Part shown: one piece after another, positions 1-22,457 of the stretch
How positions within the stretch are numbered: position 1 is the stretch's first letter
How the letters are laid out: the number at the start of each line of letters is the position of its first letter
Virus record (IMG/VR): IMGVR_UViG_3300046529_000692
Coordinates: 1 to 22,457 of that record
Length of the DNA stretch: 22,457 nt
Strand: one strand, 5' to 3'
Origin: a virus
Program-made: the position numbers and the translations under genes
Notes under the pieces: model-generated
Told to the model about the DNA's origin: nothing
Database searches by the model: none
Seen by the model: only the letters and a program-made list of their open reading frames with translations

Positions 1-2
1 AC

Positions 3-812
3 AATCTCCCTCCCAACTACGTCCAGGACCTGGAGCGGCAATACCGCAAGAACGCTGCGATGTATAAGCGGATGGTGCTCGGAGAATACGCCGAGGCCTT
101 CAACGGCACCCCCGTGTTCTACGCCTTCGAAGAGCCACACTCGAAAAAAGATTTGCCGTGGCCCAAGGGTGCGTATCTGATTCGCTCGTGGGACTTCGGT
201 GCGACCAACTCGTGCGTCTTCTCCGCCTACTGGACCGTGGGCAAGGACGAATACTGGTGGGACCTCGCGGAACAATTTTCGATGCAGTCCGACACCGACC
301 GGCAGTGCAAGTCCGTCATCGAAATCACGAACACGATTTTCCCTTTCTGGAACGACCGCGCCGTCTGCAACGGTGTGAAAGATTATTGTGACCCAGCGGG
401 CAACGCCAAGACCTCCCTCGGCTCCAACATCAAAGTGCTGAGCACCTACGAAATTTATCCTGGCTTCATGCGGATGGGCCTCTCTGAGTCAATCGCCGTC
501 TACAACCGGCTCCTCGAAAAGAAGGACTCGTGGGGCAACCACATTTATCAAATCGACAAGGAGTGCTGCCCGATGCTTTACGTCGCGAGCCTCGGCGGCT
601 ACCGGTATCCTGTCGAGGGCGAGGCTGGCTTCGGCGGAGACGAGCCGCTCAAGGGACCTTCTGGCGGCAACTTTGACCATATCGCGGACGCATCGCGCTA
701 CGGCAAGTTCAACTGTTTGAAACTCATCCGCGCCGAGGTCGAGGGCAAAAAGGGTTTAACCGGCCCGCTCGACGTGAAGCCGACTCCAAATCGAGCTAAA
801 CGCTATTACTGA
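3..812 (+). CDS. Terminase large subunit, C-terminal nuclease part (5' end outside window)
   Basis: This is the end of the packaging motor protein that cuts concatemeric phage DNA and drives it into the procapsid through the portal. The frame is open from the first bases, and codons before the first ATG at 60 (NLPPNYVQDLERQYRK) read like the linker before the nuclease domain, so the ATPase half lies outside the window. The RNase H-like nuclease signature is visible: an aspartate in SWDFG (codon starting at 192), a second in DPAG (codon at 390), and a DHxxD-type cluster in NFDHIADASRYG (codons about 672-695). These acidic residues coordinate metal in this family. The gene ends at TGA 810-812, and the next promoter overlaps and follows the stop. 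Family assignment is firm; the packaging type (cos, pac or repeats) cannot be told from this part. Confidence 0.93.
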   Translation, partial: NLPPNYVQDLERQYRKNAAMYKRMVLGEYAEAFNGTPVFYAFEEPHSKKDLPWPKGAYLIRSWDFGATNSCVFSAYWTVGKDEYWWDLAEQFSMQSDTDRQCKSVIEITNTIFPFWNDRAVCNGVKDYCDPAGNAKTSLGSNIKVLSTYEIYPGFMRMGLSESIAVYNRLLEKKDSWGNHIYQIDKECCPMLYVASLGGYRYPVEGEAGFGGDEPLKGPSGGNFDHIADASRYGKFNCLKLIRAEVEGKKGLTGPLDVKPTPNRAKRYY

Positions 813-814
813 GG

Positions 815-843
815 TTGCCAGAATTCGGAAACCTGCGTATATT
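815..843 (+). promoter_or_regulatory. Sigma-70-type promoter P1
   Basis: TTGCCA at 815-820 is followed after exactly 17 bases by TATATT at 838-843. The expected transcription start is near 850, just before the AAGGAG ribosome-binding site at about 849-854 of the gene starting at 863. It starts inside the junction with the terminase stop codon. It would transcribe the small genes, the fibre-like genes and the portal. The same -35 hexamer recurs at 7886 and 18343. Confidence 0.72.
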
Positions 844-862
844 GAGTTAAGGAGAATTTTCT

Positions 863-1240
863 ATGCCCGATTTATCAATGCCAGCCGAAGCGCCCGAAAT
901 TAAGCCGTCACTCATGCTCGACGGTGACCAAGCCGAACCCTTCATGGATTACGACGTGGGCCACACTTGCCGAATCTCCGGAGATTTCAAAGTCGTTTCG
1001 AAGTCCCACAGCGAGCAATCCGGCCCGAGCATTCGCCTTGAAGCTACCGGCCCCGTTGCCCCCGAGGGCTCCGCCGAGGAAGAGAACAGCGAGACACCCG
1101 CGCAAGAGTCCGAAGAGCCCGCTGACGAAGGTGAAGAGCCCGCTGACAGCGGCGACGAGGAAAAGATTTTGGGGTATAAGCGCCCCACGAAAGAAAACAA
1201 ACCAGCCCCCGGCGCGAGTGCGAAGGACCTGGAGAGCTAA
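863..1240 (+). CDS. Small acidic hypothetical phage protein
   Basis: A 125-residue protein with a good Shine-Dalgarno (AAGGAG, about 8 bases before ATG), directly downstream of promoter P1. The first ~65 residues look folded, with alternating polar and hydrophobic segments around CRISGDFKVVSKSH. Residues ~70-100 form a strongly acidic Glu/Asp/Pro/Ser stretch that contains a short repeat (EEPADEGEEPADSGDEE), and the C-terminus is Lys/Pro-rich. No catalytic motif, signal peptide or membrane segment is seen. It is followed closely by the next small gene, probably in the same transcript. I do not recognise the family. Placement beside terminase suggests a small virion or packaging accessory, but this is a guess. 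Confidence 0.75.
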   Translation: MPDLSMPAEAPEIKPSLMLDGDQAEPFMDYDVGHTCRISGDFKVVSKSHSEQSGPSIRLEATGPVAPEGSAEEENSETPAQESEEPADEGEEPADSGDEEKILGYKRPTKENKPAPGASAKDLES

Positions 1241-1243
1241 TTT

Positions 1244-1594
1244 ATGGCCCTCAACTATCTAGGCTCCGGGACTGGCCCCGGCACAATGCCCGCTGCTGTC
1301 CCTGGCGCAGGTCAAGTGTCTGACGCAATGGGCTCAATCAAAGGCCGAGGTGCTATCGCTCCGAATCTCGCAGCTGCAATCCAGCAGGCGACCCCCGTGA
1401 GCAACCCGGGCCAGCCTGGACTGTTGCCGCCTGGGCCGCAGAATGTTTTGCCGCAATACACGGCAGTGACTCAGGAAGACGGCTCAATTCTGATGCACCT
1501 CAACAAGCCGGACGGCTCGCCCGGGCCAGTCGTGAAAGTAATTTCTGCCATCAATGCGGGCAAGCAGCAGAACGCTGGTCAACCAGGACAATAA
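1244..1594 (+). CDS. Small Gly/Pro/Ala-rich hypothetical phage protein
   Basis: A 116-residue protein starting 4 bases after the previous stop. GGAGAG at the end of the preceding gene lies about 9 bases before the ATG and can act as ribosome-binding site. Composition is rich in Gly, Pro, Ala and Gln (for example GSGTGPGTMPAAVPGAG at the N-terminus), so much of it may be flexible. The segment around residues 75-105 (VTQEDGSILMHLNKPDGSPG) is more regular and may form beta strands. No known domain, signal or membrane segment is visible. It sits in the P1 transcript between terminase and a structural protein; a minor virion protein is possible but not shown. Confidence 0.68.
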   Translation: MALNYLGSGTGPGTMPAAVPGAGQVSDAMGSIKGRGAIAPNLAAAIQQATPVSNPGQPGLLPPGPQNVLPQYTAVTQEDGSILMHLNKPDGSPGPVVKVISAINAGKQQNAGQPGQ

Positions 1595-1597
1595 TTT

Positions 1598-2236
1598 ATG
1601 CAGGACGTAATTTTAAAAGTAGAGGTCACAAACCCGAGTGACATCACCATCGGGACAATGGCGGAAACCGTTCTCGACGGCGCAGACGTAACGCAAGGTG
1701 CATTGGCCGATGCCGCTGCGACGAACACCACTTCGTCCTGGTCAGTGGTTGCTCTGCTCAAGGGCATCCTCTCCAAGTTTACTCGGACCGAGACCGTCAT
1801 CAAAGTCGTGCCGGTCATCACCACGACCCCGTATTCTGTCGGCGACTCTGTCGGTCCGGCCCAGACCCTCACAGGCGCGCTTACCCCGAACGGTAGCGGT
1901 CTTCTGGAGTCCCTCGTGCTGCTCGACAAGTCCAACCAAAAAGTTGCTCTCGACGTTTTGATTTTCGAATCGAGCCCAGCTGCTGCGACCATCACCGACA
2001 ATTCCGCCTTCGTCTTTTCGACGGACGACCTCAAGGTCATCGCTCGCGTATCTATCGCGACCGGCGACTACGTCACGGTTGCCAGCGAGGCTGTCGCCGT
2101 GAAATCGAATCTTCGAACCTCTTTGAAATCTTCTGGCGGCAACAACCTCTATGCTGCTGTTATCGCCTCGACCGGCTCAACCCCGACTTACGCTGTCGGC
2201 GCACTACAATTCGTCTGGGGCTTCTCCAGAGACTAA
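1598..2236 (+). CDS. Phage structural protein of unknown role (possible capsid decoration or tail protein)
   Basis: A 212-residue beta-rich protein with no cysteines. AGGA lies 9 bases before the ATG and the spacing to the previous stop is 3 bases. The segments TPYSVGDSVG, SLVLLDKSNQKVALDVLIFE, NSAFVFSTDDLKVIARVSI and the ending LQFVWGFSRD match, from memory, a conserved protein found among the structural genes of many tailed phages whose exact role is usually left unannotated. The fold looks like a beta-sandwich with a Ser/Thr/Ala-rich N-terminal third. I infer it is a virion protein, perhaps a head decoration or a tail accessory. The position next to two fibre-like genes fits either. The family resemblance is moderately sure; the function is not. 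Confidence 0.72.
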   Translation: MQDVILKVEVTNPSDITIGTMAETVLDGADVTQGALADAAATNTTSSWSVVALLKGILSKFTRTETVIKVVPVITTTPYSVGDSVGPAQTLTGALTPNGSGLLESLVLLDKSNQKVALDVLIFESSPAAATITDNSAFVFSTDDLKVIARVSIATGDYVTVASEAVAVKSNLRTSLKSSGGNNLYAAVIASTGSTPTYAVGALQFVWGFSRD

Positions 2237-2245
2237 AGGACTTTT

Positions 2246-3358
2246 ATGAGAAACTTACTCGCAACCGGCGACTTTCGCACCGGCACCCTCGACGTCAAAG
2301 TCGGTAACGGTGCGGGCACAGTCGCAACCTCGACAGACCTTGTCGGCTCCTGGGCACTCAACGTGGACGAGACCGATGTCGGGACGAACAAATACATCCG
2401 CATCCGCAACATCGGCGTTGCCGCTGCAGTGGCCGCGACCAAAGTGACCGAGCCCCCTGCGGAAGTCATCGGTGATTCTCTTCTGCTCATCGACCTGGAG
2501 TCCGGCCCGCTGCGCGCCCCTGGCGTTGCACGCACCGGCTTCGCTAAGGTCACTCAGGTTGTGAACGCTTCGCCGAAGGCTCTTTCGAATCAAATCGTCG
2601 AGCTCAACTTTTTCGCCTACTCGTCTGTCGCCGGGACCTTCGGTATCCGCATTTCGAAAAGCAATGTGTATGCTGGCGGCACCCTCGCTGCTGACATTCT
2701 GTCTGAAGCGGTTCAGCTCAACGCCGGATGGAACCGAGTTCGGCGCGTCTTCTTGCATCCGAACGTTCTCGACACCGACCCTGCGAAGGGCGCGTATGTC
2801 AGCGGCTCCCACACCATTTATCTCGAAGCCGACCAGGGTGATTTCTCCCAGGTCAACATCAACGTCAATACTACGGTTGCAATCACCGGAGTTTTCTTCG
2901 GCCTACAGGCGGATGCAGAGTTTGACCGCATCGAGGAAATCCTTCGGCTGAACAGCGGCACCCTGCCGACCGGCGGCACGATTGGTCAGGTCGTTAAGAA
3001 AAATTCCGGCACCAACTTCGACGCGAGCTTCGTCAACCTCCTCGGGAGCGGGCTTGAGTCAACCACGACCGGCGCAATCGCCATCGACCTGACTCCGGGT
3101 AAAGAATTCGACAGAGTGGTGCTGACCGGCGCGCCGACCTTCTCTACTGCCAACCGAGCGAACGGTCTCTTCAAGAGCATCCGGATTGACTCGAACGGCT
3201 CTAGCCGAGCACTCTCTTTCAACGCGAGTTGGAAATGGCTCGGGGCTGACTACTCTGCAGGCGTCACGCTCGCGAGTGGAAAAATCGCGGTGCTCTCGCT
3301 CACTTGTTACGGCACCGCTGAAACCGACATCGTCGCGGTCTTCGCGGCTCAACCGTAA
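2246..3358 (+). CDS. Fibre-like / virion adhesion protein with one tail-repeat motif
   Basis: A 370-residue protein with ribosome-binding site AAGGA 5 bases before ATG. The N-terminal half (residues ~1-230) is beta-rich and includes a carbohydrate-binding-like sandwich region (VELNFFAYSSVAGTFGIRIS ... TIYLEADQGDFSQVNI). Residues ~240-264 carry one copy of the LPTGGTxGQxxxKNSGTNFDASF repeat that occurs eight times in the protein at 13777. The C-terminal ~80 residues (LFKSIRIDSNGSS ... TDIVAVF) resemble C-terminal sandwich domains of phage tail-fibre proteins. The stop overlaps the next start (TAATG), so the two are probably translationally coupled. A role in surface attachment is inferred from domains; it could also be a head fibre given the location beside terminase and portal. 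Confidence 0.72.
   Translation: MRNLLATGDFRTGTLDVKVGNGAGTVATSTDLVGSWALNVDETDVGTNKYIRIRNIGVAAAVAATKVTEPPAEVIGDSLLLIDLESGPLRAPGVARTGFAKVTQVVNASPKALSNQIVELNFFAYSSVAGTFGIRISKSNVYAGGTLAADILSEAVQLNAGWNRVRRVFLHPNVLDTDPAKGAYVSGSHTIYLEADQGDFSQVNINVNTTVAITGVFFGLQADAEFDRIEEILRLNSGTLPTGGTIGQVVKKNSGTNFDASFVNLLGSGLESTTTGAIAIDLTPGKEFDRVVLTGAPTFSTANRANGLFKSIRIDSNGSSRALSFNASWKWLGADYSAGVTLASGKIAVLSLTCYGTAETDIVAVFAAQP
2963..3037 (+). repeat. Single outlying copy of the phage tail repeat
   Basis: Codons for LPTGGTIGQVVKKNSGTNF and the following six residues match the 28-residue unit repeated eight times at 13942-14616: same GG(T/S)xxQxxxKNSGTN(F/Y)D core. It lies within the fibre-like gene at 2246-3358, linking its N-terminal and C-terminal domains. 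Confidence 0.8.
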
Positions 3359-4185
3359 TGATTACGCAATCTGTCAACGACCTTCCGTTCATGGCTCTCG
3401 GCGACCAATGGGCTCGTCGAGTTGTGGTGAACGGTGGACCCATGCCGAGCGGTAACACGCTCACAGCACTGGCGTCATTCAATCTGGCAATCAGGGACAT
3501 CAGGAGCCAAATCGTTGCGTGCAATTTCTTTGCTCCGGACAGTGTGATTGCCGCCCGGACTCCTCTCATCGTCGGTCCAAGTGGTGTCGACCCTTGGGAC
3601 AATCTAGCTCATGACAACTACGACGGTCGAAGCGGATTGAACGGCTGGGCACTCAACATTGTCGGAGACCCGACACTTGTTGGCATTATTCAGCCGTCGC
3701 TTTCTGGCCTGTCGTTTAACAGTGCGGGCGTAGTGCTCTATGGCTACGACATCGCCGCTGACCCTCAGCACGCTATAGACTTCGGAGCCCTCCACGTTGC
3801 GACCGGTGACGGGCTCTACTTCGGCACCGCTTCTGGGAATAAAAAAACTCAAATCGGGAAAGTGCTCCTCACCGTAGCTGGCGCAGGAGCTAACGGCTTC
3901 TACTCCTGCCAGCGCACGGGTAGCACCAGCCTCAACATGTATTTTGCCAACAGCGGCAGCGCTCACGCATCTATCGGTAGCACCGCTACAGCCGAGACCG
4001 GGGACATTTCGAACCTCAACTTTTCAATGGGTATCGGAATGAACACAGACGGGACATTCGGCGAGGCACTGGGGCGCATCTATTCGTTCGCAGCCGTCAC
4101 TACCGGCATGAACGCTACGGACAGCGGCACGCTCTACGCAGCGGTGCAGGCTCTGAGAACTTCTTTGGGTGGTGGGTTTGTTTAA
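3358..4185 (+). CDS. Fibre-like protein built from one copy of a ~260-residue module
   Basis: A 275-residue protein whose ATG overlaps the previous stop (TAATG), indicating translational coupling. After ~15 residues, nearly the whole chain is one module starting QWARRVVVNGG and ending ALRTSLGGGFV. This module is clearly related to the two tandem copies in the protein at 15027: shared RVV.NGG..PSG, FxPDSxxAxxTPLI and DPW.N near the start, and the same Leu-Gly-Gly-Gly ending. The middle is Gly/Ser/Thr/Ala-rich and probably a jelly-roll (LamG-like) sandwich. The expected role is binding a host-surface glycan or another receptor, as part of a fibre or capsid appendage. That role is inferred from the Ig-containing fibre context of the paralogues, not from a catalytic motif. 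Confidence 0.72.
   Translation: MITQSVNDLPFMALGDQWARRVVVNGGPMPSGNTLTALASFNLAIRDIRSQIVACNFFAPDSVIAARTPLIVGPSGVDPWDNLAHDNYDGRSGLNGWALNIVGDPTLVGIIQPSLSGLSFNSAGVVLYGYDIAADPQHAIDFGALHVATGDGLYFGTASGNKKTQIGKVLLTVAGAGANGFYSCQRTGSTSLNMYFANSGSAHASIGSTATAETGDISNLNFSMGIGMNTDGTFGEALGRIYSFAAVTTGMNATDSGTLYAAVQALRTSLGGGFV
3403..4182 (+). repeat. Copy A of the ~260-residue fibre module (upstream locus)
   Basis: 780 bp coding for the module from DQWARRVVVNGG to GGGFV, nearly the same length as the two copies at 15570 and 16380 (783 bp each). It keeps the opening block and the end but is the most diverged copy in the middle. Confidence 0.78.
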
Positions 4186-4191
4186 CGATTT

Positions 4192-6330
4192 ATGGACTTA
4201 TTACTCGCAAGGCGGATTGAGAAGGACAAGGATTTCCGAGCGAAGATGGTCAAGCTCGCGAAGGATTACTTGCGCCTGGGCCGAGACGCACTCGCGTATT
4301 GGTCGAATGAATTCGACGTCGCTTACGACATCCTGAACGTCTACGCCCCTCTCACGAAGAAGGACATGGACGCCCTGGAGCGCGGCAGTCCGAAGCGTTA
4401 CATTTTGCCGATGACCTCGACGCAAATCGAGACGATGACAACTTACGTCTCGCAAGTGCTCTTCGGTCAGGCTACGCCCAATGCAGTGGAAGGCCGACGA
4501 CCGGAAGACGAAATTCCTGCCGAGTTTGTGAACCAGCTCCTTCGCTGGAATTCTGAGCAGCAGCCTGGGGGCTCGTATCAGATGGGCTACCTCTGGACTA
4601 AGGACGCTCTCGCGGTTAACCGTGGCATCTTCTACAATTCTTGGAGACCGATTTTCCGTCCGCAGATGGTGCAGGAAGATGTGCCCATCCCCGACGAAAC
4701 CGAGACCGACCCCGAGACCGGCGAGTCGAAACCGAAGACCTACCCGCGCACTCGACGGACGAATGTCGAAGTCGGCGGTTATAACAACATGGAGCTCGTC
4801 TCTCCCTACGACTGGATTTGCGACCCCGCTCTTCCTCTCTGGCGTATGCAGGAAATGCGCTTCGCCGGTCACCGCACAGTCATTCCCGTGACCGAGCTCC
4901 GCAGGCGCGCAAAACTTTCTCCAGACCATCCACAATATGTTCTACCATCCGCAGTCACCGAACTCGTCGAGAAGGCCAAGAAAGGTGTCGCGCAAGCTGA
5001 CGCCGCTGTTCCCTCTCTTCCTGGCGTTCTACCTAACCCTGCAGAGATTCGCCTCTCGCGCACTGCGTATGAGCGCACCCGCGCACTACAGCCTACAGGC
5101 GCGTCTCAAGCCGACAAGAACGACACTGGGAACGTTGAATGTTGGGAGCTGTGGGTGCGACTCGTGCCTCGCGACAACGAGATTTACGCTGATGACGTGG
5201 GTGACGAGCCTGTAATTTTCCAGATTCTTATTTCTGGTGGTGATGTCCTCTTATCCATGACCGAGTCAACCTACGCGCACGGGATGTATCCATATTCTGT
5301 TGCGGAAGGTCGGCCTAACGCGCACTTCCAGTTTTCTCCTGGGTGGGTTTTTATGCTGAAAGGCATTCAAGACTACGTTGACTGGTTGAAAAACCGACAC
5401 CAGGAAGCACTGAGCCGGACCGTGGGCAACATCTTTGTCTATGACCCCGCATGTGTGGACGTCTCCGACTTCATGAACCCCGACAAGGAAGGGCTGCTTA
5501 TTTCTCTGCGCCCCGAAGCCGCCGGGAAGAAAATCAGTGACGTGTTCACGCAGGTCCCCATCAAGGACCTTACCGAAAACTTTTTAGAGGAAGCGATGGA
5601 CTTCGTAAAATGGTCCGAGTCCGTCACCGCTGCAAATTCCAACATGCAGGGGGTTACACCTTCTGGTGACCAGAGCGCGACCGAATATGCAGGCACCCAG
5701 CAAATGAGTGCCGGACGCATGACTGCGCTCGCTCGTCTCCTCTCTGTCCAGGGCCTCGTGCCTCAGACCAAGCAGTTCGTTTCGAACTTTCAACAGTTCA
5801 TGAACGATGCCCAGATGGTTAAATTCAAATCGACCAACGTCGAAAATCTTCCTCCAGCTTTAGCGAATGCCTACGCCATTAATATTTCCCGAGACACAAT
5901 CGAAGGTGAGTTTGATTTCATCGCGCACGACGGAGCGCTACCTGGGCCTGACGGTCGCAAGGTCGCGGCTATTACTCGTCTGCTCGAAGCGGCGACAGCG
6001 TTTCCGCAGGTGTTTCAACCGGCTCCTGGCAACCTCGACCCACGCCTGCTTATCTTCGCTGCCGCGAAAGCGTCCGGTGTCTCTGTCGAAAATTTCGTCT
6101 ACACTCCAGACCAGCTCGCAGCTGCACAGGGTGGGGCTCCTGGCGGGCCTCCCGGCGGAACACCTGCTGGTCCTGCAGGCAGTCCCGCAATGGCTGGCGC
6201 ACCGGCTCTCCCGGTTCAACCGGCGGCTCAAGCACCTGGACCGACCCCGCAAGGTATCGCCGCTCCCGAGCTCCCGCCGTTAACGCTTCCTCGCGTTGCG
6301 GCTCCGCAGCCGAAGCCGTCTAACACTTGA
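4192..6330 (+). CDS. Portal protein
   Basis: A 712-residue protein matching the size and layout of large podovirus-type portals. The dodecameric portal sits at one capsid vertex, docks the terminase during packaging and holds the adaptor and tail. Visible features are an N-terminal helical region (ARRIEKDKDFRAKMVKLAKDY, YDILNVYAPLTKKD), the segment MTSTQIETMTTYVSQVLFG, a MELVSPYDWICDPALP motif near residue ~205 typical of portals, a wing region with alternating strands, and a long helical stem after residue ~400 (IQDYVDWLKNRHQEALSRTV). The last ~65 residues are Pro/Gly/Ala-rich and probably disordered. No strong Shine-Dalgarno precedes the ATG. A promoter for the next gene starts 6 bases after its stop. 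Confidence 0.88.
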   Translation: MDLLLARRIEKDKDFRAKMVKLAKDYLRLGRDALAYWSNEFDVAYDILNVYAPLTKKDMDALERGSPKRYILPMTSTQIETMTTYVSQVLFGQATPNAVEGRRPEDEIPAEFVNQLLRWNSEQQPGGSYQMGYLWTKDALAVNRGIFYNSWRPIFRPQMVQEDVPIPDETETDPETGESKPKTYPRTRRTNVEVGGYNNMELVSPYDWICDPALPLWRMQEMRFAGHRTVIPVTELRRRAKLSPDHPQYVLPSAVTELVEKAKKGVAQADAAVPSLPGVLPNPAEIRLSRTAYERTRALQPTGASQADKNDTGNVECWELWVRLVPRDNEIYADDVGDEPVIFQILISGGDVLLSMTESTYAHGMYPYSVAEGRPNAHFQFSPGWVFMLKGIQDYVDWLKNRHQEALSRTVGNIFVYDPACVDVSDFMNPDKEGLLISLRPEAAGKKISDVFTQVPIKDLTENFLEEAMDFVKWSESVTAANSNMQGVTPSGDQSATEYAGTQQMSAGRMTALARLLSVQGLVPQTKQFVSNFQQFMNDAQMVKFKSTNVENLPPALANAYAINISRDTIEGEFDFIAHDGALPGPDGRKVAAITRLLEAATAFPQVFQPAPGNLDPRLLIFAAAKASGVSVENFVYTPDQLAAAQGGAPGGPPGGTPAGPAGSPAMAGAPALPVQPAAQAPGPTPQGIAAPELPPLTLPRVAAPQPKPSNT

Positions 6331-6335
6331 GCTGT

Positions 6336-6365: not shown

Positions 6366-6374
6366 GGTGTGTAA

Positions 6375-6644: not shown

Positions 6645-6646
6645 TT

Positions 6647-7765: not shown

Positions 7766-7774
7766 TCGCAAAGA

Positions 7775-14664: not shown

Positions 14665-14676
14665 GAGGGCTAATTT

Positions 14677-15030: not shown

Positions 15031-17165
15031 GCACTTTTGGAAGAATTCATTTTCTTAGGCGTCAACGTCGCTTCTCTCTCGGTGAATTTCCTTCCCCGAG
15101 CATCGGGGCCTTCGAGGACTTCGAATCGCAGAGATTGGACTATGGCGGGCCTGAAAGAGGCTGGGCCGGTCCTGGTGTAGTCTACACCTACGCCGCTCTG
15201 GTAGCGTTCGAGAATTACGAGACCAGCACACTCAACTCTACTATCCTGCCCGTCTTCGGCTGGGCATCAGGGGGCGTAGGGACACCTCCGTCCTTCTCTG
15301 TCCAGCCCACCGCTTCAGTAGGTGCGATGGCTGGTGACAACATCATAATCACCGCGACTGAAATCAATGGCGCTGCGCCGGTCACTTTCCAGTGGCAGAA
15401 GAATGGAGTAAACTTGAGCAACGGTGGCGTTGTCTCCGGTGCGACCACTACGACTCTCACTCTCACCGGTATTAGCACAGGCGATTACGGCAGCTACACC
15501 CTGATTGCAACGGACGCCGCCAGCGCGTCAGCTACATCGACTGCTTGTGTGGTCACGGACATCACCAGCGACTGGGTGACTCGGGTAGTTGCAGCCGGTG
15601 GAGCAACGCCTAGTGGGGCAACTCAGACCGCTCTGACTACGTTCATGAACGGTCTGGTCACCGACAGCATCTACACTTCGATGAAGGGTGTCTGCTGCTT
15701 TGTGCCAGACAGCCTCATTGCTTCAATCACTCCTCTCATCAAGGGCACGGGTATCAGCCCTTGGACAAACCATAGTTTTGTCTTGGGCGACCTATCCCTC
15801 AATGGTCTCAAAGGCAACGGCTCTTCTAAATATTTAGACACCGGCATTCTACCCAATCCGACCTTCGCCAGTGACAATGACGGAGCTCTGACGGTCTATA
15901 ACTATTCCGCAAGCACTAGCGGTATCATCGACCTGGGTTGTGAGGGAAGCGCTTTCAACGTCAATTCGTTCCACCTTTACGCTCCTTGGAGCGATGGAAA
16001 TATTTACAGTGACATTTACGGAGCCGGGACGGGGCGTATCGCTGTCGCCTATCCGGCGGCTACTGGGTTTGTGTCATCCAACCGCACTGCGTCCAATGCT
16101 CATGCGGTCTATAAGGGTTCGTCAAATTTCCCGCACTCCACTTTGGTGACAGGTTCCGGTGTCTCAGACCAGACCAGGAGCTCAACCCGTTCGGTTTACT
16201 GCTTTGGTTCGAACGCCAACGGAACCCCGGCAGGTTTTAGTAATAGGAGAATGTCCTTTGCCGCTGTGCATGGCGGGTTGTCTTCGGGGCAGTCGGCAAA
16301 CTTATTCACTCGCGTCCATCAAATGCGGAAGGACCTTCACGGTGGTTATGTGACCCTGTCTGGAAACGATTGCGTCGACGACTGGGCTCTGCGCGTGGTC
16401 GCAAACGGCGGGGCAGCTCCGAGTGGCGGCACCGTGACTGCTCTGAAAACTTTTATGGCCGGACTGGCTACCGATGCCATCGACAATAAAATTCTGTCCT
16501 GCAACTGCTTTGTCCCCGACAGCTTAACTGCGGCAATCACTCCACTGATTAGCGCGCTAGTCGGTGCATTCAACGACCCTTGGACTAATACTAACTTCGT
16601 GGGCGGAGACCTGACCGTCAATGGTCTCACTGGCAACGGTTCGAATAAGTGGTTGAACACGGGGATTAAGCCCATCGTCGCAGGAACAAACAACATAGGC
16701 CTAGCTGTCATGATGCCCGCGACTGGGTCCAACGGTGCAGTTATGGGTAGTTGGGACGGAGCAGGCGCAACCTCCCGTCTGACTCTATCCTGTAAGTTCA
16801 GCGACACCTTCTTCTACAGCTTCGATGGTGCGAACGCGAACTTAATCGGCGGCACCCTATCTCCAGGCATAGGCTTCTACGCGAACAACCGGACATCCTC
16901 GACGGACCACCGAGTCTGGTTTGCGAAGACGGGCTCCGCTTTCGCGCAGATTAATGCGACAGACACAACGAGCTTCACCGGCACAGCGGTAGCTACTAAC
17001 CCCATGTCGGTGTTTGCACAAAACGGTAACGGGGCGAATAACTCTTTCTGCTCGGACACTCTCTCGTTCGCGTGCTTCCATTTCAACATGTCGTCCACTG
17101 ACCTATCTAATCTCTTCAACCGAGTGCAGACGCTGCGCGTGGCATTGGGTGGAGGCTCTGTTTAA
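15027..17165 (+). CDS. Large fibre protein: N-terminal anchor, Ig-like domain, two tandem ~260-residue modules
   Basis: A 712-residue protein starting in the ATGA overlap with the previous gene. Residues 1-85 include a basic N-terminus (RIHFLRRQRRFSLGEF) and two related AFEDFES / AFENYET segments, probably the virion attachment part. Residues ~86-178 are an I-set Ig-like domain: PPSFSVQPTASVG, the core FQWQKNGV strand and DYGSYTLIATDAA, with the Asp-x-Gly-x-Tyr pattern. Residues ~182-442 and ~452-712 are two copies of one module (RVV.xGGxxPSG, CFVPDSLxAxITPLI, NGLxGNGSxKxLxTGI, Gly-Gly-x-Val end), which also occurs once at 3403-4182. The NGL-GNGS segment and the following strands fit a jelly-roll lectin-like fold. 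It is the best receptor-binding candidate in the window; glycan binding is inferred. Confidence 0.78.
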   Translation: MSTFGRIHFLRRQRRFSLGEFPSPSIGAFEDFESQRLDYGGPERGWAGPGVVYTYAALVAFENYETSTLNSTILPVFGWASGGVGTPPSFSVQPTASVGAMAGDNIIITATEINGAAPVTFQWQKNGVNLSNGGVVSGATTTTLTLTGISTGDYGSYTLIATDAASASATSTACVVTDITSDWVTRVVAAGGATPSGATQTALTTFMNGLVTDSIYTSMKGVCCFVPDSLIASITPLIKGTGISPWTNHSFVLGDLSLNGLKGNGSSKYLDTGILPNPTFASDNDGALTVYNYSASTSGIIDLGCEGSAFNVNSFHLYAPWSDGNIYSDIYGAGTGRIAVAYPAATGFVSSNRTASNAHAVYKGSSNFPHSTLVTGSGVSDQTRSSTRSVYCFGSNANGTPAGFSNRRMSFAAVHGGLSSGQSANLFTRVHQMRKDLHGGYVTLSGNDCVDDWALRVVANGGAAPSGGTVTALKTFMAGLATDAIDNKILSCNCFVPDSLTAAITPLISALVGAFNDPWTNTNFVGGDLTVNGLTGNGSNKWLNTGIKPIVAGTNNIGLAVMMPATGSNGAVMGSWDGAGATSRLTLSCKFSDTFFYSFDGANANLIGGTLSPGIGFYANNRTSSTDHRVWFAKTGSAFAQINATDTTSFTGTAVATNPMSVFAQNGNGANNSFCSDTLSFACFHFNMSSTDLSNLFNRVQTLRVALGGGSV
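15282..15560 (+). other. Ig-like domain within the fibre gene
   Basis: Codes for about 93 residues from PPSFSVQPTASV to TACVVTD. The tryptophan strand FQWQKNG and the DYGSYTLIATD strand are the Ig-fold core pattern. The usual first cysteine of vertebrate Ig domains is absent, as in most phage and bacterial versions. Confidence 0.78.
15570..16352 (+). repeat. Copy B of the ~260-residue fibre module
   Basis: 783 bp from DWVTRVVAAGG to LHGGYV in the Ig-domain fibre. Separated from copy C by a 9-codon linker. Confidence 0.85.
16380..17162 (+). repeat. Copy C of the ~260-residue fibre module
   Basis: 783 bp from DWALRVVANGG to LGGGSV, the C-terminal end of the Ig-domain fibre. It shares the CFVPDSL, ITPLI, PWTN, NGL-GNGS and TGI blocks with copy B, and its end is most like copy A (LGGGxV). 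Confidence 0.85.
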
Positions 17166-17169
17166 TTTT

Positions 17170-17895
17170 ATGTCACTATTCGTCACAAGAACTTTTGCAT
17201 CGGGCGCAGACATCGCACTTCAGCTCGGCACCGAGGAGTGGGCGCGCACCCTTTCCATCGGGAACTTGTGGAATAAAATCCGCATCGGCTGCATGTTGGC
17301 AATCAATCCTGCTGGAGTAGCGAGCACCCCAACCCCCTCCGGGCCTACGATTGGCATGTGCGCTGGCACCGGCTCGACTTACGGAATGACGAGCACCAAT
17401 AACTTCATCGGGGCTTCGTCTGCCTTAACAATAGGAGGTTTTTATTCTGCTGGCACAGGCGGGGTTCAGCCGGTCTTCGATTGGAACGGCGGCAACTTCG
17501 CCCTTACGAAAGTCGCGACCACCGTTAACTCGGTTTCTTTGGGCGGAGGTTGGAATGCTGGTATCCCTGTCCAGGGTGTCGGCACACAAAGACACTGGAT
17601 TATTCTGGTGGACATCCTGAAAGGGACCCCGAACTACACGGTGACGCATTGGGCTCAGGACCCTCCAGCCCACGGCGGCTCGACCGGCGTTGACCAGACT
17701 ACTGCGGACTTGCTTTTTGCTATGTCCCAAACCGGCGCGATTACTTTTCCGAGCAACGGAGAGACCTTGCAGACGCATTCAGTCGCCATCGCAGCCAGCG
17801 AAGCAACCGGCGCTTTCGACACGGTGAACATCCACTGCAATCTTTCGGGCTTCCCGATGGAGATTTATTCAGTAGCGGTTCAGAAGATGTCGTAA
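17170..17895 (+). CDS. Unrecognised beta-rich protein downstream of fibre
   Basis: A 241-residue protein. I place the start at ATG 17170, 4 bases after the fibre stop; an upstream in-frame ATG inside the fibre gene would give a Cys/Arg-rich extension in the wrong reading frame and is unlikely. A GGAGG lies about 14 bases before the ATG, too far to be ideal. The chain opens MSLFVTRTFASGADIALQLG and is rich in Gly, Thr, Ser and aromatic residues throughout, with alternating strands (HWIILVDILKGTPNYTVTHW, TVNIHCNLSGFPMEIYSVAV). This suggests a single jelly-roll-type virion protein. There is no signal peptide, membrane segment or catalytic motif. Position at the end of the fibre block suggests a fibre accessory, chaperone or tip. 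Family not recognised. Confidence 0.7.
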   Translation: MSLFVTRTFASGADIALQLGTEEWARTLSIGNLWNKIRIGCMLAINPAGVASTPTPSGPTIGMCAGTGSTYGMTSTNNFIGASSALTIGGFYSAGTGGVQPVFDWNGGNFALTKVATTVNSVSLGGGWNAGIPVQGVGTQRHWIILVDILKGTPNYTVTHWAQDPPAHGGSTGVDQTTADLLFAMSQTGAITFPSNGETLQTHSVAIAASEATGAFDTVNIHCNLSGFPMEIYSVAVQKMS

Positions 17896-17905
17896 GCCTT
17901 TTTGT

Positions 17906-18340
17906 GTGCTACCTTATACTGTGACTGTTCTCGAAGCACTGAAGGAAATCTCGAACGGCAACGAAGATGCCCACCGCTTTATGCGGGCATTTTACGTGTG
18001 GGTCCAGGTCCAAGACGACCTCTTCGACCGGGACCAGGATGTGACTGCCTCGCAGCTGGTGAGCGCCAACATGGACCTGCTCATCGAGGTCAGCCAGAAC
18101 AAGTTTTACCAGGAGCACCGTGCAGTTTTTCTGCCGGTCATTTTTAGCTCGTCCCTGGCTTGGGTCTCGTCCGAGGACTTCAAGAAACGGGACGCAGCTC
18201 TGGACCGGCTGTCCAGCCAAGTGATTAAGAGCCAGTATCAGGACGTTTTTATCCAGGTCGCGCTCCTCGTGGGCGGAATGGACTTTTGCCTCGCGATGCA
18301 GGCGAAATACCGCAGTTATTACTTTGACGCCACTTCTTAG
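17906..18340 (+). CDS. Unrecognised small helical phage protein
   Basis: Up to 144 residues, read from GTG 17906; GTG 17921 (product beginning VTVLEALKEISNG) is an equally plausible start and neither has a Shine-Dalgarno. The product is mostly helical and contains an acidic DDLFDRDQDVT segment near residue 40, an NKFYQEHRAVFLPVIF stretch, and a final helix with Gly-Gly-Met-Asp (ALLVGGMDFCLAMQAKYR). From memory similar all-helical proteins with a DDxxD-like stretch sit beside ejection or fibre genes in other tailed phages, without known function. The aspartates recall metal-binding sites, but no enzyme family is clearly matched. It lies between the fibre block and the ejection block and may belong to either. 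Confidence 0.66.
   Translation: MLPYTVTVLEALKEISNGNEDAHRFMRAFYVWVQVQDDLFDRDQDVTASQLVSANMDLLIEVSQNKFYQEHRAVFLPVIFSSSLAWVSSEDFKKRDAALDRLSSQVIKSQYQDVFIQVALLVGGMDFCLAMQAKYRSYYFDATS
17915..17920 (+). promoter_or_regulatory. Weak candidate -10 box at the start of the helical protein gene
   Basis: TATACT lies between the two possible GTG starts. A transcript from it would begin near 17927, after both GTGs, so it could not serve them. No -35 box is visible at 16-18 bases upstream. Listed only as a candidate for the downstream genes; may be chance. Confidence 0.2.
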
Positions 18341-18342
18341 CT

Positions 18343-18371
18343 TTGCCAAAAGGGCTTAAACGTGGTATCTT
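18343..18371 (+). promoter_or_regulatory. Sigma-70-type promoter P4 for the ejection genes
   Basis: TTGCCA (18343-18348), 17 bases, TATCTT (18366-18371), starting just after the stop of the preceding gene. Expected transcript start near 18378, immediately before GGGGAG, the ribosome-binding site of the gene at 18391. It would drive the ejection gene block to the right edge. Confidence 0.7.
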
Positions 18372-18390
18372 AAATCTATAGGGGAGCCTT

Positions 18391-19068
18391 ATGCCTTTTT
18401 GCAATTCGACACAGAAATATACCGACCAGCCGCAGGTCCTGGACACCATGACGGGTCAGGGCCAGCAACAGCGCTCGAACATCTACAGCCAGCTCGACCA
18501 GAACAAGGGCGCAATCAACGCTGGCACCCAGGCCTACGCTGGCGGGCTCAAGACCGCTGCCGCTGACCCAGGATGGGCAACCGCTGCCGCCGAAGCTGGC
18601 AAGACCGCTGGCGGAAGTTATCTCAGCGGCTCTCCTCAGCTCAAGGCCCAGCTCGACGCGAACTACAATCGCGCCCTCTCCGCTTCTGCAGACCAGGACG
18701 CCCGCATCCGCTCCCAGTTTGCGCGCTCCGGAATGAGCTTCTCCACGGCGAACCAGCAGGCCCAGGAAGCGAACCGCGCTGCCGCTGCCGGTCAGGCTCA
18801 AGGCCAGAACGCTCAGGTCATCGGCCAGAATTACATGGCCGAACGTCAGCTGCAATCTCAGGCTCCGCAAGCGCTCGCGACCGCAACCGGCGTCCCGCTA
18901 AGTTATTTGGGAGCTGTCCCAGGCGCATACATGAGCCCGCTGCAAACGCAGGCCGGATTAGTTTCAGGACTTTCGACCGGACAGGTTGCGACACCGAGCA
19001 CCGCTGTCTACAATAAACCGGGGCTCGCGCAAGAGTCCGGCCTCACAAGTCTAATCGGCAACCTGTAA
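18391..19068 (+). CDS. Probable internal virion / DNA-ejection protein
   Basis: A 225-residue protein with strong ribosome-binding site GGGGAG and promoter P4. The central part (YLSGSPQLKAQLDANYNRAL, then DQDARIRSQFARSGMSFSTA) matches a pattern I associate with small podovirus ejection proteins: a GSPxLxAQLD-like helix, repeated Ala/Gln-rich helices, and a Phe-Ala-Arg-Ser-Gly turn. Such proteins are packaged inside the capsid and leave with the DNA to build a channel across the cell envelope. The chain is Ala/Gln/Gly-rich and helical from ~20 to ~165, with a more hydrophobic end. No signal peptide. Assignment rests on motif resemblance and on lying first in a block of similar Ala/Gln-rich genes. 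Confidence 0.6.
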   Translation: MPFCNSTQKYTDQPQVLDTMTGQGQQQRSNIYSQLDQNKGAINAGTQAYAGGLKTAAADPGWATAAAEAGKTAGGSYLSGSPQLKAQLDANYNRALSASADQDARIRSQFARSGMSFSTANQQAQEANRAAAAGQAQGQNAQVIGQNYMAERQLQSQAPQALATATGVPLSYLGAVPGAYMSPLQTQAGLVSGLSTGQVATPSTAVYNKPGLAQESGLTSLIGNL

Positions 19069-19075
19069 AAAATTT

Positions 19076-19411
19076 ATGGCAATTTCACTAGGATTCGGAC
19101 AAGGAAACAAGGACGCCCCGATGTCTGGCTCGACCGGCGGAGGCAGCATTCAACCTAAGCTGCAACTCAATCCCCAAGGCAAGATGGTGACCGATGGCTC
19201 GGGCGGGTTCTTGAACTATTTGCACGGACTGATGCAGCAGCCCGCTGTCGCTCCCGCCAATCAGGCTCCGCTCGCACCCCCTGCCGCAGATGGTGGAGCT
19301 GGAGGCCCAGGCGGCTCCAATACCAGTGGAGCTGCCCAGCAAGGGACTAACGCTGCCGCTGGTGCTCTGGCTGGTAAAGCAGCTGGCGCGGCTCTCGGTG
19401 GTGGTCTGTAA
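19076..19411 (+). CDS. Small Gly/Ala-rich protein in the ejection block
   Basis: A 111-residue protein starting 7 bases after the previous stop; no clear Shine-Dalgarno, so coupling is likely. The N-terminal half contains GSIQPKLQLNPQGKMVTDGS and FLNYLHGLMQQP, possibly a short helix. The second half is almost all Ala, Gly, Pro, Ser and Gln, and the last ~25 residues (AAAGALAGKAAGAALGGGL) form small-residue GxxxA-type helix packing, which would suit membrane insertion or tight oligomerisation. I infer a minor internal virion protein because of the gene position. It could instead be a spacer protein with no structural role. Family not recognised. Confidence 0.62.
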   Translation: MAISLGFGQGNKDAPMSGSTGGGSIQPKLQLNPQGKMVTDGSGGFLNYLHGLMQQPAVAPANQAPLAPPAADGGAGGPGGSNTSGAAQQGTNAAAGALAGKAAGAALGGGL

Positions 19412-19428
19412 AATAGGAGAAAAGTTTT

Positions 19429-21174
19429 ATGGCAAGCGCTACAGGTTTCGGAACGCCGACCCCTCCTCAGTGGACGGGGGTGCAAACTCTTGTCCAGAAT
19501 TGGCTGAAGTCCAAGTCGCCTGAGTATATCGCGCAGCAGGCTCAAATCCAAAAAGAGAACGAGTTCCGCCAGCACAACCAGGAGCTAGCCGACAAACAGT
19601 TTCAGGACACTCACGCTCAATCCGGCCTTGCTCAGGAGACCGGCCAGTTCAATCTGAATAACGCGAAGCGTCAGTTCCATCTGATGACTTACGACCCGCA
19701 GGGCGCATTCGGAAACGACGAGAGTGTTCCCTCGGGCAATGACGTAGGCCAGGAACAGGCTCCGCCCCCGCCCCAGGCTGGCGCGACCGCTGCCGCTGGA
19801 GAGCCAACCTCTTTCCAAAATCCGCAGCAGGCCTCGGCGCAGTCGACGACCACTCTGCCGAAATCTGATGCGACCGAGACCGCGACTTCCCCGAGCACCG
19901 AGGGAGACAACGGTTTCGATTACAATATTTACGGCTTCAAAGCTGGCACCGGTCACCCTGGTGATGTCAAGGCCAGCAACCCGAAGACCACGTTCGCGAA
20001 ACCGAACCGGCAAATCCCCGCTCTGAAGGGCGACCAGAAAGCAGCCAACTCTCTGCCCGATGTTCCGAGCTCTGGTGTTCCTCAGCCGGACAGTGCGAGC
20101 CTCGGCTCCGCTTCTCGGCTCAACGCTATCCCTTCTGCAACGACTGCCTCCAGTGCTTCTGCTGGTGGTGACGCTGGCCCGAGCACCGATGCAATGCAGT
20201 TCGGAATTCACGGCAAACCTTTTTCGGCAGCTGCCGCAGCCGCGCAGTCCGCTTCTCATGATGCTTCAACCCCGTGGGATGAGCTCTCCCGGAGCGAACA
20301 GAAAAAAGTCATCGCTGGTTACCAAAAGGGAGCCCCCGGAGGGACCACAGTTTCTCCGACCGAGGCAGTCCGCGCTTACCGTATGCAGCAGTGGGCACGC
20401 TCGGGAATTTCCACTCCTCAAGGAATGTATGCGGACGAAATGACCGTCGACCCGAGCACCGGCCTGCCTACCATCAAATACAAAGCGAATCCTTTCGCTG
20501 GAGAGGGCGACGAAGGCGGGGGCGGCATGGCTACACCTGCCGGTCTGGAAATGGCCGGGAAGGTCGACTCTCTCAACAAGGCAATCTCTGGCGACGAGAA
20601 CATGAAGTCTGCCCAGAATGTCATCAAGGCCTACGGCAACATGCTGCATCAGGCCGAGCTCGCGAAGACCTCGAAGGCTCCCGGCGTAAACGACCGGACC
20701 CTGGCGCAGCTCTACGCACAAACTTTTGCTCCTAACGCGAAATTCAACGAAGCGACCCAGGAGTTAGTCGGTGACACCCACAACATCATCGACGCAATCA
20801 AGCAACCACTTTATCACGCGCTGTCCGGGCAGACTCTTTTGCCCGAGCATCGAGAAGCCCTTCTCGAATCAGCGCGGCTTAATGCGCAAGCAGCTCACAG
20901 CGCAGCAATACAGAGCACTCAGGCACCTCGCTCGCTCGGCGAACTGGCACTTGGTAAGAAAAGGGCCTTACGGCTCATGACCCAAGTTCCGGAACTCCCA
21001 GGAGAAGCAACTGGAACTTCGCCTCGTGTCGGCAACGGCACCGTCGAAGGCTCCGCTGGCTCTGGTCAGAATAAAACTCTGGATGCCGCCACGGCTCAGA
21101 AGTTCATTGACCAAGCCAAGGGAGACAATGCTAAAGCGAGACAGTTAGCCAAAAGTGCTGGTTATGCCATCTAG
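19429..21174 (+). CDS. Probable internal virion / DNA-ejection protein (large)
   Basis: A 581-residue protein with strong AGGAG 9 bases before ATG. Residues ~15-85 are a long helix or coiled coil (PEYIAQQAQIQKENEFRQHN, QFNLNNAKRQFHLM). Residues ~95-285 are low-complexity Pro/Ser/Ala/Gly/Gln and probably unfolded, as expected for a protein that must thread through the portal channel. Residues ~365-510 are helical, with DRTLAQLYAQTFAPNAKFNE ... SGQTLLPEHREALLESAR, a pattern I know from phage ejection proteins (a sequence ending in Gly-x-x-Leu-x-Pro-x-x-Arg). The C-terminus carries QAKGDNAKARQLAKSAGYAI, a short helix motif common at ends of phage structural proteins. No transglycosylase motif is seen. 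Confidence 0.63.
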   Translation: MASATGFGTPTPPQWTGVQTLVQNWLKSKSPEYIAQQAQIQKENEFRQHNQELADKQFQDTHAQSGLAQETGQFNLNNAKRQFHLMTYDPQGAFGNDESVPSGNDVGQEQAPPPPQAGATAAAGEPTSFQNPQQASAQSTTTLPKSDATETATSPSTEGDNGFDYNIYGFKAGTGHPGDVKASNPKTTFAKPNRQIPALKGDQKAANSLPDVPSSGVPQPDSASLGSASRLNAIPSATTASSASAGGDAGPSTDAMQFGIHGKPFSAAAAAAQSASHDASTPWDELSRSEQKKVIAGYQKGAPGGTTVSPTEAVRAYRMQQWARSGISTPQGMYADEMTVDPSTGLPTIKYKANPFAGEGDEGGGGMATPAGLEMAGKVDSLNKAISGDENMKSAQNVIKAYGNMLHQAELAKTSKAPGVNDRTLAQLYAQTFAPNAKFNEATQELVGDTHNIIDAIKQPLYHALSGQTLLPEHREALLESARLNAQAAHSAAIQSTQAPRSLGELALGKKRALRLMTQVPELPGEATGTSPRVGNGTVEGSAGSGQNKTLDAATAQKFIDQAKGDNAKARQLAKSAGYAI

Positions 21175-21180
21175 CACTTT

Positions 21181-22457
21181 ATGTCTGACATCTTCGACCA
21201 GCTAAATCCTGGAACTCTCCAGGGCACAAAGCCTACTCCTAGCAAGGGTCTAAAGTTCAACGACTCGTCTGCCGCTGGTGCTCCGCAAGCACCGCAAGAG
21301 CAGCAACAGGTCGCTGCGTCTCCCTCGACCGGAGACATCTTCGACAAGATTAACCCGACACAGGACATCTTCGACCAGCTCAACCCTGGCGACACTCACT
21401 ATCGCCAGCTCTACGCTCAGCAAAAGAACCAGGGCATCGGCGATGTAGCGAAGGGTGCTTGGGAGGGAGTCAAGTCCCTCGGCAATATGGCTATTGGCGG
21501 AGCTAAGGAGCTCGGCCAGTCCTACGGCAACATTGAAGCTGGCGCAGAGCAAAACCCTCTAGGCTTCGAAGAGACAGAGGGAGCGCGCAGGCTCCGCGCA
21601 ACGGCTCTCGAAGGCGTAGCGCAGACTGGCCGAAACTATTTGAACATGGTCACGCACGACGTGCCCAGTATCGAAGACCTCGCCAGCGGTGCAGCCGGTG
21701 GACTAAACCCGAGCGCACTTCTGTCTGCTCAGGTTCACCACGAGATTAATAAGCCCGGGGGCATGGTCCGAAATCTTTTGAAGAAGGCCGGAATAATTAA
21801 TCCGACCCCGGAACAGGAAGAGGCCGAATACCAAACTTGGAAGAGAGCTCAGCAAGACAAAGACGAGCTCGCAAAAACTCCTGCTGCCCCTGCTGCTCTT
21901 CAGCAGCTCGTGTCCGGCGGAGCCGAGCCGCTCCCCAACTTGACCGGCGCAGTCAGCATGGTCGCGGACCCGCTCAATTATCTCAGCTTAGGTGGAGCTC
22001 CCGCTGCCCAGGCCCTTCGTAAAGTCGAGGCCGGTATAAAGACGGCGAGCGCTGCCGAGAAGGCCGCGCAGGTTGCTGGCAATGTCATGAAGACAACCGG
22101 CCACGTTCTGGAGAAGACCGGAGAGCTGCCCGAGACACTCGCTCAAAAAATCACCGAGGGAGCTCTCGGACCCCAGGCTGGAGAGGCCGCGAAGAAGCTC
22201 GGCGCTTCTATCGGTCCTGTCTCTGCTGTCGCTTCTGTCATTCACGGCGGAGCACCTGAAATGGTTATGGCCGGTCTCGAAGGCGCAAAGCGCGCTGGTA
22301 AAGCTTTGCAGGGTGCTGGTGAGGCTTCTGTGGCCTTGGCCGAGGCCGACCGCAACAATCCTTTTGGTCGTCTCGCTGCCCTGGCGAAAGATTCTGATGC
22401 CCCGGAGTGGATGCGCTACGCTGCGTCCTCTCGCCTAGTCAAAGCCGCAGCTCCTGC
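21181..22457 (+). CDS. Large internal virion / ejection protein, 3' end outside window
   Basis: At least 425 residues, open to the right edge. It starts at the ATG 6 bases after the preceding stop; no Shine-Dalgarno, so probably coupled. The N-terminus has three copies of DIFD(Q/K)(L/I)NP (residues 3-10, 52-59, 62-69) joined by Pro/Gln/Ser-rich linkers. Residues ~80-330 are Ala/Gly-rich amphipathic helices (GDVAKGAWEGVKSLGNMAIG, AVSMVADPLNYLSLGGAPAA), a composition typical of large podovirus ejection proteins that insert into the host envelope. Residues from ~330 on are again Ala-rich helix. No lytic transglycosylase or peptidase motif appears in the visible part; if present it would be further on. 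Frame is certain; function is inferred from context and composition. Confidence 0.64.
   Translation, partial: MSDIFDQLNPGTLQGTKPTPSKGLKFNDSSAAGAPQAPQEQQQVAASPSTGDIFDKINPTQDIFDQLNPGDTHYRQLYAQQKNQGIGDVAKGAWEGVKSLGNMAIGGAKELGQSYGNIEAGAEQNPLGFEETEGARRLRATALEGVAQTGRNYLNMVTHDVPSIEDLASGAAGGLNPSALLSAQVHHEINKPGGMVRNLLKKAGIINPTPEQEEAEYQTWKRAQQDKDELAKTPAAPAALQQLVSGGAEPLPNLTGAVSMVADPLNYLSLGGAPAAQALRKVEAGIKTASAAEKAAQVAGNVMKTTGHVLEKTGELPETLAQKITEGALGPQAGEAAKKLGASIGPVSAVASVIHGGAPEMVMAGLEGAKRAGKALQGAGEASVALAEADRNNPFGRLAALAKDSDAPEWMRYAASSRLVKAAAP
21187..21387 (+). repeat. Three DIFDxxNP motif repeats at the start of the last ejection gene
   Basis: The DNA word GACATCTTCGAC occurs at 21187, 21334 and 21364, each followed by (Q/K)(L/I)NP codons. 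Copies one and three have the same protein core DIFDQLNPG; copy two is DIFDKINPT. Copies two and three are only 10 codons apart. Confidence 0.85.

Follow-up and report, generated by a model that had tools for sequence, protein, structure and literature searches.

The viral DNA considered here, the IMG/VR virus record IMGVR_UViG_3300046529_000692 (positions 1 to 22,457), raises the question of which short words a phage lineage has purged from its genome, and whether each of them has been removed at the level of DNA or of messenger RNA (mRNA). The stretch analysed, hereafter the window, comprises 22,457 nucleotides (nt) and is the entire record, with no longer genome behind it; judged by its genes, it is the late or structural gene block of a tailed phage. 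Two palindromic tetramers, GATC and GTAC, are missing from it altogether, and a third word, GATA, is missing only from the strand that carries the coding sequences:

1..22457, both strands: zone without GATC and GTAC, which are palindromes
1..22457, + strand: zone without GATA, with 63 copies of TATC; the + strand is the coding strand of every called gene
72..22455, all on the + strand: 22 called genes (own simple gene caller, coding fraction 0.93), each with 0 sense GATA

GATC and GTAC in the window and its clade

The absence of both palindromes had been claimed in the initial annotation of this DNA, and it is confirmed by a string count of 0 and 0 over the 22,457 bases. The annotation expected about 88 copies of each site, a figure which rested on equal base use and has been replaced here by expectations from base composition (83.8 each), from an order-1 Markov model (95.4 for GATC and 40.0 for GTAC), from a maximal-order Markov model (50.8, z -9.6, and 39.1, z -8.5) and from synonymous-codon shuffling of the 22 window genes, in which protein and codon usage are held fixed (70, z -10.5, and 58, z -9.2). 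When all 16 palindromic tetramers are counted against a Markov expectation, only these two are empty; the other 14 all occur, as had been noted for most of them before, and the scarcest of them are ATAT and TATA, with 17 copies each, and CTAG, with 21. The earlier list of empty words was right for GATC and GTAC and missed GATA: three of the 256 tetramers are empty on the + strand, and GATA shows 0 copies against 34 expected under the order-1 model and 21 under shuffling (z -5.1).

Relatives were sought in IMG/VR, where 10 were recovered with the capsid protein as query, three more with an alignment query and six further short contigs with a portal query. The complete sequences used were G001, G002 and G004 to G012, with G003 taken as locus L004 and G000 standing for the window record itself. 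Six records, G000 to G004 and L069, form the window's clade. G001 to G004 and L069 come from five other metagenome numbers, and capsid identity within the clade reaches 100% in the best segment (portal for L069; the portal of G003 stands at 98%). The ends of G004 (65,867 bases) overlap over 877 bases at 96.8% identity, so this record is probably a near-complete genome.

Across the full length of G001 to G004, both GATC and GTAC number 0, against order-1 expectations of 290 and 104 in G004. The gaps between the called genes of G004 lack them as well (0 against 28.3 and 0 against 16.2 expected, as the sum of five gap classes, some of these gaps possibly containing uncalled genes), and the 355 isolated substitutions that separate G000 from G003 have created neither a new GATC (7.3 expected) nor a new GTAC (5.0 expected). 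No DNA methyltransferase was found in family scans (Pfam, PADLOC and NCBIfam) covering 55 of the 90 proteins called in G004, and a methyltransferase motif scan of all 90 gave a single DPPW in a tail protein, which was taken as chance. Because neither word occurs in coding DNA or in gaps, no new sites arise and no phage methyltransferase is seen, both losses are best explained, and well so, by avoidance of type II restriction sites. The long-term restriction selection put forward initially thus stands for GATC and GTAC, though these data do not separate it from the other possibility raised there, the loss of a methylation target; as an account in terms of DNA only it falls short, since it overlooked that GATA is lost from one strand only, a pattern that is not explained by restriction of double-stranded DNA (dsDNA). 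Enzymes of the Sau3AI/MboI type, which read GATC, and of the RsaI type, which read GTAC, serve here as examples only.

Longer words show gaps of their own in G004. Nine palindromic hexamers (GCCGGC, CGCGCG, CTCGAG, GGCGCC, CGGCCG, GGGCCC, CCGCGG, ATCGAT and GTGCAC) are empty over the whole record, against 10-41 expected under the maximal-order model, and the 64 palindromic hexamers sum to 718 observed against 1031 expected. GAGATG and its complement CATCTC, possibly another restriction site, both number 0 in the genes of G004 (14.7 and 9.1 expected) and of G005 (11.7 and 7.4 expected).

Loss of GATA from the sense strand

Within the 90 called genes of G004, GATA is found on the sense strand 2 times against 62.3 expected under synonymous shuffling, and on the antisense strand 147 times against 136.7. 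The loss is independent of the reading frame, as none of the three codon phases escapes the depletion when codon usage is fixed (0, 1 and 0 in + genes against 27, 11 and 6 expected; 0, 0 and 1 in - genes against 10, 4 and 3). It is also restricted to the mRNA-sense strand in both gene directions: in genes of at least 300 nt, sense and antisense counts are 1 and 91 for + genes (p 4e-26) and 1 and 36 for - genes (p 6e-10). The sense/antisense log ratio (observed over expected) for GATA is -3.1 in G004 and -2.9 in both G001 and G003; among the eight non-clade sequences G005 to G012, no non-palindromic tetramer with both expectations of at least 15 goes beyond -0.73.

All six clade records hold 0 to 2 sense GATA in their genes. 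The same near-total loss is seen in none of the 15 non-clade relatives and in none of eight further contigs that share accessory genes with the clade, so that it is confined to one clade; in several non-clade relatives sense GATA is somewhat below antisense. When the sense GATA sites of G005 are aligned to G004, none of 40 is kept, the commonest replacement being GACA (12), and the retention controls are 11 of 76 for TATC and likewise 11 of 76 for GATG. The substitutions between G000 and G003 have given no GATA on the + strand (3.8 expected) and eight TATC (4.0 expected). The pair G001 and G004 shows five + strand gains of GATA (6.5 expected) and three of TATC (7.0 expected), and this pattern is attributed to the left arm of both records, where the genes lie on the other strand.

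The orientation of the missing word follows the direction of the genes. The left arm of G001 and G004 has GATA on the + strand and nearly lacks TATC, because the left-arm genes are encoded on the opposite strand. At the first switch in G004, TATC is found up to 5122 and GATA from 5678, with gene direction changing at about 5650 and one stray TATC at 7335; at the second, the last left-arm GATA lies at 23955 and the next TATC at 24446, within a stretch free of genes (24197-24928), and a single stray GATA follows at 25017. A reversed cluster of a few genes opposed to their neighbours lies at about 39.2-40.8 kb of G004 (reversed record). Over some 1.3-1.6 kb, this cluster carries two GATA on the + strand in each of G004, G001 and G002 and four in L069, to be compared with 0.025 GATA per kb in the + genes of G004. 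Its called genes are without TATC; in G004, G002 and L069 one TATC immediately precedes a small gene, and the gap ahead of the cluster in G004 contains two more. The four records inherit this cluster by descent, and it thus counts as a single evolutionary case. The flip of GATA orientation inside it contradicts a pure replication-strand effect, against which the arm switches speak as well.

In G004 an asymmetry is also seen between co-directional genes, and it is weaker in the other clade records. Co-directional gaps of at least 12 nt, some of which may hold uncalled genes, contain 4 sense and 22 antisense GATA in G004, 5 and 14 in G001, 4 and 12 in G002, and 2 and 3 in L069. For G004, a count with a 3-base margin gives 5 against 22; the count used is that of gaps of at least 12 nt without margin (4 against 22), and a further site at 33863, which sits in a 6-nt gap, falls outside it. 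Being sense-only, independent of frame and present also between the co-directional genes of G004, the loss points to the transcript.

One gene-poor accessory gap of about 0.8 kb keeps sense GATA, with four sites in G001 (about 21970-22773) and one in G004 (about 35260-36060; both reversed records). This gap may hold promoters or a non-coding RNA.

Distribution among relatives and levels of selection

GTAC numbers 0-2 in 17 of the 21 counted records, with small expectations in the short ones (4 in L081 and 9 in L078), and shows no order-1 depletion in the remaining four, G008, G009, G011 and G012; when codons are shuffled synonymously, counts are moderately low in three of them (92 against 138, 59 against 110 and 115 against 195). 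GATC is 0 in eight of the 21, namely G000 to G004, L069, L074 and L077. In the genes of other relatives it is strongly reduced (14 against 191 expected in G005, 15 against 73 in G006, 12 against 46 in L064, 2 against 23 in L075 and 5 against 18 in L078), more mildly low (G007, G010 and L081, the last with 8 against 17) or near expectation (G008, G009, G011, G012 and L040). G007, G010 and L040 have lost GTAC but still contain GATC, and neither word is left in the window's clade, in L074 or in L077; as losses of GTAC only stand alongside double losses, the two are separable. The loss of GTAC appears to be the wider one and, judged by this distribution, was probably the earlier.

The eight further contigs mentioned above, recovered through a nucleotidyltransferase-like or an RNA ligase gene, add to this picture. 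GATC is 0 in L097, L105, L106 and L107, and GTAC is 0 in L097 (where only 7 were expected), L098, L106 and L107. The window's capsid protein has no match in the records behind L105 and L107 and a marginal 34-residue match in that of L106, all of them possibly fragments. The loss of GATC in contigs with shared accessory genes and no clear capsid match suggests a shared host pressure. Other words are missing elsewhere among the relatives: GGACC and GGTCC (GGWCC) both number 0 in the genes of G010 (45.8 and 32.9 expected), and CTAG occurs 2 times in the genes of G011 against 128 under the order-1 model and 54 under shuffling, GATC and GTAC being undepleted there.

According to these data, a two-layer account is proposed, which we hold to be somewhat likelier right than wrong, combining avoidance of restriction at the DNA level with selection against GAUA in mRNA. 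At the DNA layer, hosts with type II restriction systems reading GTAC and GATC would keep new sites out. At the RNA layer, which would concern the window's clade only, GAUA would be removed from transcripts rather than from DNA as such, most likely by a sequence-specific single-strand endoribonuclease cutting GAUA in mRNA during infection. Such a nuclease could be a host toxin or an abortive-infection nuclease; less likely, it would be a phage nuclease degrading host mRNA, with the messages of the phage themselves devoid of the site. The counts, the sense-strand rule, the confinement of its near-total form to one clade and the lasting absence among clade variants are observed, whereas a nuclease as the agent and RNA instead of single-stranded DNA (ssDNA) as its target are what we infer. 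The chances are about even that the lineage represents near-complete avoidance of RNA restriction sites in a dsDNA phage, driven by a GAUA-cutting RNase of host defence or of phage host shutoff.

Four other explanations concern the word GATA. Type III restriction, with every GATA held in the same orientation to avoid head-to-head pairs, would produce the one-strand loss of a non-palindromic word, and strand-asymmetrical avoidance is discussed as an escape route in the part of a survey consulted (PMC6286503). The + strand of G004, however, has GATA in its left arm and a second time within the reversed cluster, and TATC in its right arm and first 5 kb; facing as well as diverging pairs are therefore present, and orientation tracks gene direction rather than any genome-wide rule. 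A four-base site is also short for a type III enzyme, and this explanation is highly improbable. A sequence-specific attack on ssDNA exposed during transcription or replication, of the DarT type (ADP-ribosylation), has more in its favour: DarT modifies ssDNA at TNTC, as stated in the part of the source available (PMC5179494), and TATC, the template form of sense GATA, fits this motif. The coding strand is displaced and exposed in transcription, which makes a sense-strand loss possible; the template strand, which would carry TNTC, is paired with RNA at that time. The other template TNTC words are nevertheless kept (sense GAAA 347 against 361, GACA 335 against 273 and GAGA 250 against 305, compared with 2 against 83 for GATA), and a pure replication-strand form is contradicted by the flip in the reversed cluster. 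DarT targeting of all TNTC is rejected, as only TATC is lost and TTTC, TGTC and TCTC are near expectation, a verdict that concerns the TNTC motif only; the ssDNA explanation as a whole is unlikely. Effects of translation or codon choice, or spurious promoters or terminators, would tie the loss to genes and agree with the weaker depletion around start codons and with the long gap of G001 that keeps four sense GATA. Against them stand the depletion of all three phases with codon usage fixed, the low number of sense sites between G004 genes (4 against 22 antisense) and the sense GATA kept by 15 non-clade relatives, and we regard them as rather improbable.

A GAUA-specific RNase encoded by the phage itself, which would shut off host mRNA while its own transcripts were purged, would fit a purge spanning the genes of both arms, and many small clade genes of unknown function have no tblastn match in G005, G006, G008-G012 and L040. 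The family scans of the 55 G004 proteins revealed no RNase toxin family apart from Csx3, a CRISPR ancillary nuclease, which was matched weakly in PADLOC (E 0.0071), and only a small probability is given to this source. It has also to be asked whether GATC and GTAC are themselves avoided as RNA (GAUC and GUAC), since palindromes hide the strand and two of the three losses could be put down to a single RNA word, GAU(A/C). The G004 co-directional gaps speak against this, with GATC 0 against 24.6 and GTAC 0 against 14.4 expected compared with GATA 4 against 16.6, and GATC is lost without loss of GATA in L074, L077, L097 and L105-L107; avoidance of the palindromes at the RNA level is accordingly unlikely. 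In windows around start codons, moreover, GATC and GTAC remain at 0 (12.5 and 5.5 expected); that they are missing even in places where GATA leaks argues for selection at two separate levels.

Several observations weigh against the proposed action on mRNA. A very similar pattern would be expected from an agent that attacks the displaced coding strand as ssDNA. The host search, in which the capsid (single and alignment query) had no relative in genome_contigs, and the scans of phage proteins yielded no host, no restriction gene and no RNase. The gene calls come from our own codon-bias program, which is simple, and the gap asymmetry is less clean in G001, G002 and L069 than in G004. Some sense GATA survive: in G004 (reversed record), within genes at 7335 and 25017 and in gaps at 33863, 35890, 39356, 40889 and 41159; in G001, within genes at 3135 and 13200, with six more in gaps, of which a single long gap holds four. 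The RNA pairing predicted for the surviving GAUA sites does not set them apart. Windows around start codons are less depleted (3 sense GATA against 14.6 expected from composition) than other coding sequence (1 against 78); this leak agrees with an agent whose target is exposed mRNA and which initiating ribosomes keep away in part, a comparison with small numbers made post hoc. Outside the clade, shuffling indicates a moderate reduction of sense GATA in G006 (30 against 43) and G009 (108 against 161), and the + genes of G005 hold 61 sense and 104 antisense GATA, yet sense GATA is there at its shuffle expectation (64 against 56 in all + genes). Finally, GATA is normal in L105-L107, in L077 and in G010, which carry, respectively, a relative of the RNA ligase gene, a relative of the nucleotidyltransferase-like gene and a tRNA-Met gene, as described below.

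The accessory genes of the clade were considered for a link with the GATA effect. An RNA ligase (PF09414, Pfam E 1.2e-15) is encoded at 29436-30425 of G004 and a nucleotidyltransferase-like protein at 27944-28750 (both in the reversed record); each is matched in G001 and G002, and neither has a tblastn match in G005, G006, G008-G012 or L040. Relatives of the ligase occur in L105-L107, and those of the nucleotidyltransferase in L077, outside the clade, and in L097-L101. The ligase has no match among annotated phages or solved structures, and the nucleotidyltransferase-like protein no significant match among solved structures. A single tRNA-Met gene (CAT) is present in G004 (L018:4105-4181), G001 (L013:8570-8646) and G010 (L036:13051-13126), and may be either a tRNA-Met or an isoleucine tRNA reading AUA. 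As carriers with normal GATA exist, these three genes do not mark the effect and are at most suggestive; for the ligase and the nucleotidyltransferase, a link is not supported, given the normal GATA of L105-L107 and L077. Of the 52 PHROGs families matched by G004 proteins, 25 were covered. Structure models made from the single sequences of two small clade-specific proteins (one without its first residue) reached mean pLDDT values of 37 and 46 and were unusable. The protein encoded at L019:4191-4676 matches HNH endonucleases and, less strongly, AP2. G001 and G004 have it in identical form, G009 has a relative and G005 no match; its gene is possibly a mobile one of the homing type.

Gene content of the window and comparison with known systems

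The genes of the window that match protein families, all encoded on the + strand, are the following:

60..812, + strand: terminase large subunit, C-terminal part (phrog_10250, E 1.7e-7)
4192..6330, + strand: portal protein (phrog_156, E 1.4e-8)
7972..9231, + strand: major capsid protein (phrog_1328, E 1.5e-16), the query used to find relatives
9800..10462, + strand: virion structural protein of the head and packaging class (phrog_2941, E 6.9e-11)
11171..13777, + strand: large virion structural protein (phrog_3287, E 2.4e-29)
15027..17165, + strand: protein with a Hoc-like head-decoration stretch at residues 86-189 (phrog_2973, E 3.2e-10; phrog_4069, E 5.3e-9)

The terminase gene would continue upstream beyond the window, as suggested by an open frame of 521 amino acids at the matching place in G001, G002 and G004. 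Five 84-base tandem repeats (80% matches) occupy 14177-14592 of the window, within the gene at 13777-14664. The window has no match at the DNA level to annotated phages, and its capsid and portal match them only distantly (below 27% identity), in Caulobacter, Microcystis, Roseobacter, Vibrio and Desulfofustis phages and an EBPR podovirus.

Restriction-site avoidance is a known record of DNA-level warfare. If the proposal made here is true, a strand-specific gap that follows gene direction would be a record of RNA-level warfare that can equally be read from sequence. Counting words on sense and antisense strands could then reveal phages that face sequence-specific RNases, together with the word that each enzyme reads, before any enzyme has been isolated; GAUA would be a testable specificity for the putative nuclease. 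The loss of GATC and GTAC is probably of an already known kind, and the sense-only loss of GATA the surprising part. As in other cases of type II restriction-site avoidance by dsDNA phages, short palindromes are wholly lost from genes and gaps and no methyltransferase is detected; the difference lies in the third word, GATA, which is lost from the sense strand only. Sites of the type III enzyme EcoP15I are reportedly kept in one orientation only in phage T7, a likeness in that a non-palindromic word is absent from one strand, whereas orientation is set here per gene and not for the whole genome. In the survey already cited, to the extent consulted, strand-asymmetrical avoidance is not systematic for type I and type III sites (PMC6286503). 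For GTAC, restriction glycosylases of the R.PabI type, which recognize this word, are a candidate class for the pressure, and GTAC is described as rare in Helicobacter and Campylobacter in the portion of the source available (PMC10273834); nothing favours these enzymes over an ordinary endonuclease.

With regard to RNA, the closest likeness is offered by toxin endoribonucleases such as MazF, whose cutting of single-stranded RNA at short words would suit the GAUA proposal: MazF homologues cut at words of three to seven bases, according to the part of a review consulted (PMC5408214). No GAUA-specific enzyme was found in that review text or in the literature searched, and titles and abstracts, in a literature mostly without subscription journals and without bioRxiv, gave no report of sense-strand word loss in a dsDNA phage. 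The MazF word ACA is under-represented in RNA phages, with a mean of 0.83 in 57 genomes, which has been attributed to toxin endoribonuclease, and its under-representation is not significant in phages without ssRNA genomes, as given in the portion of that study available (PMC12151602). What the two cases share is that a short word is scarce in the RNA of the phage. However, the depletion of ACA in RNA phages is mild, while the loss described here occurs in a dsDNA phage, amounts to about 97% and affects the transcribed sense only.

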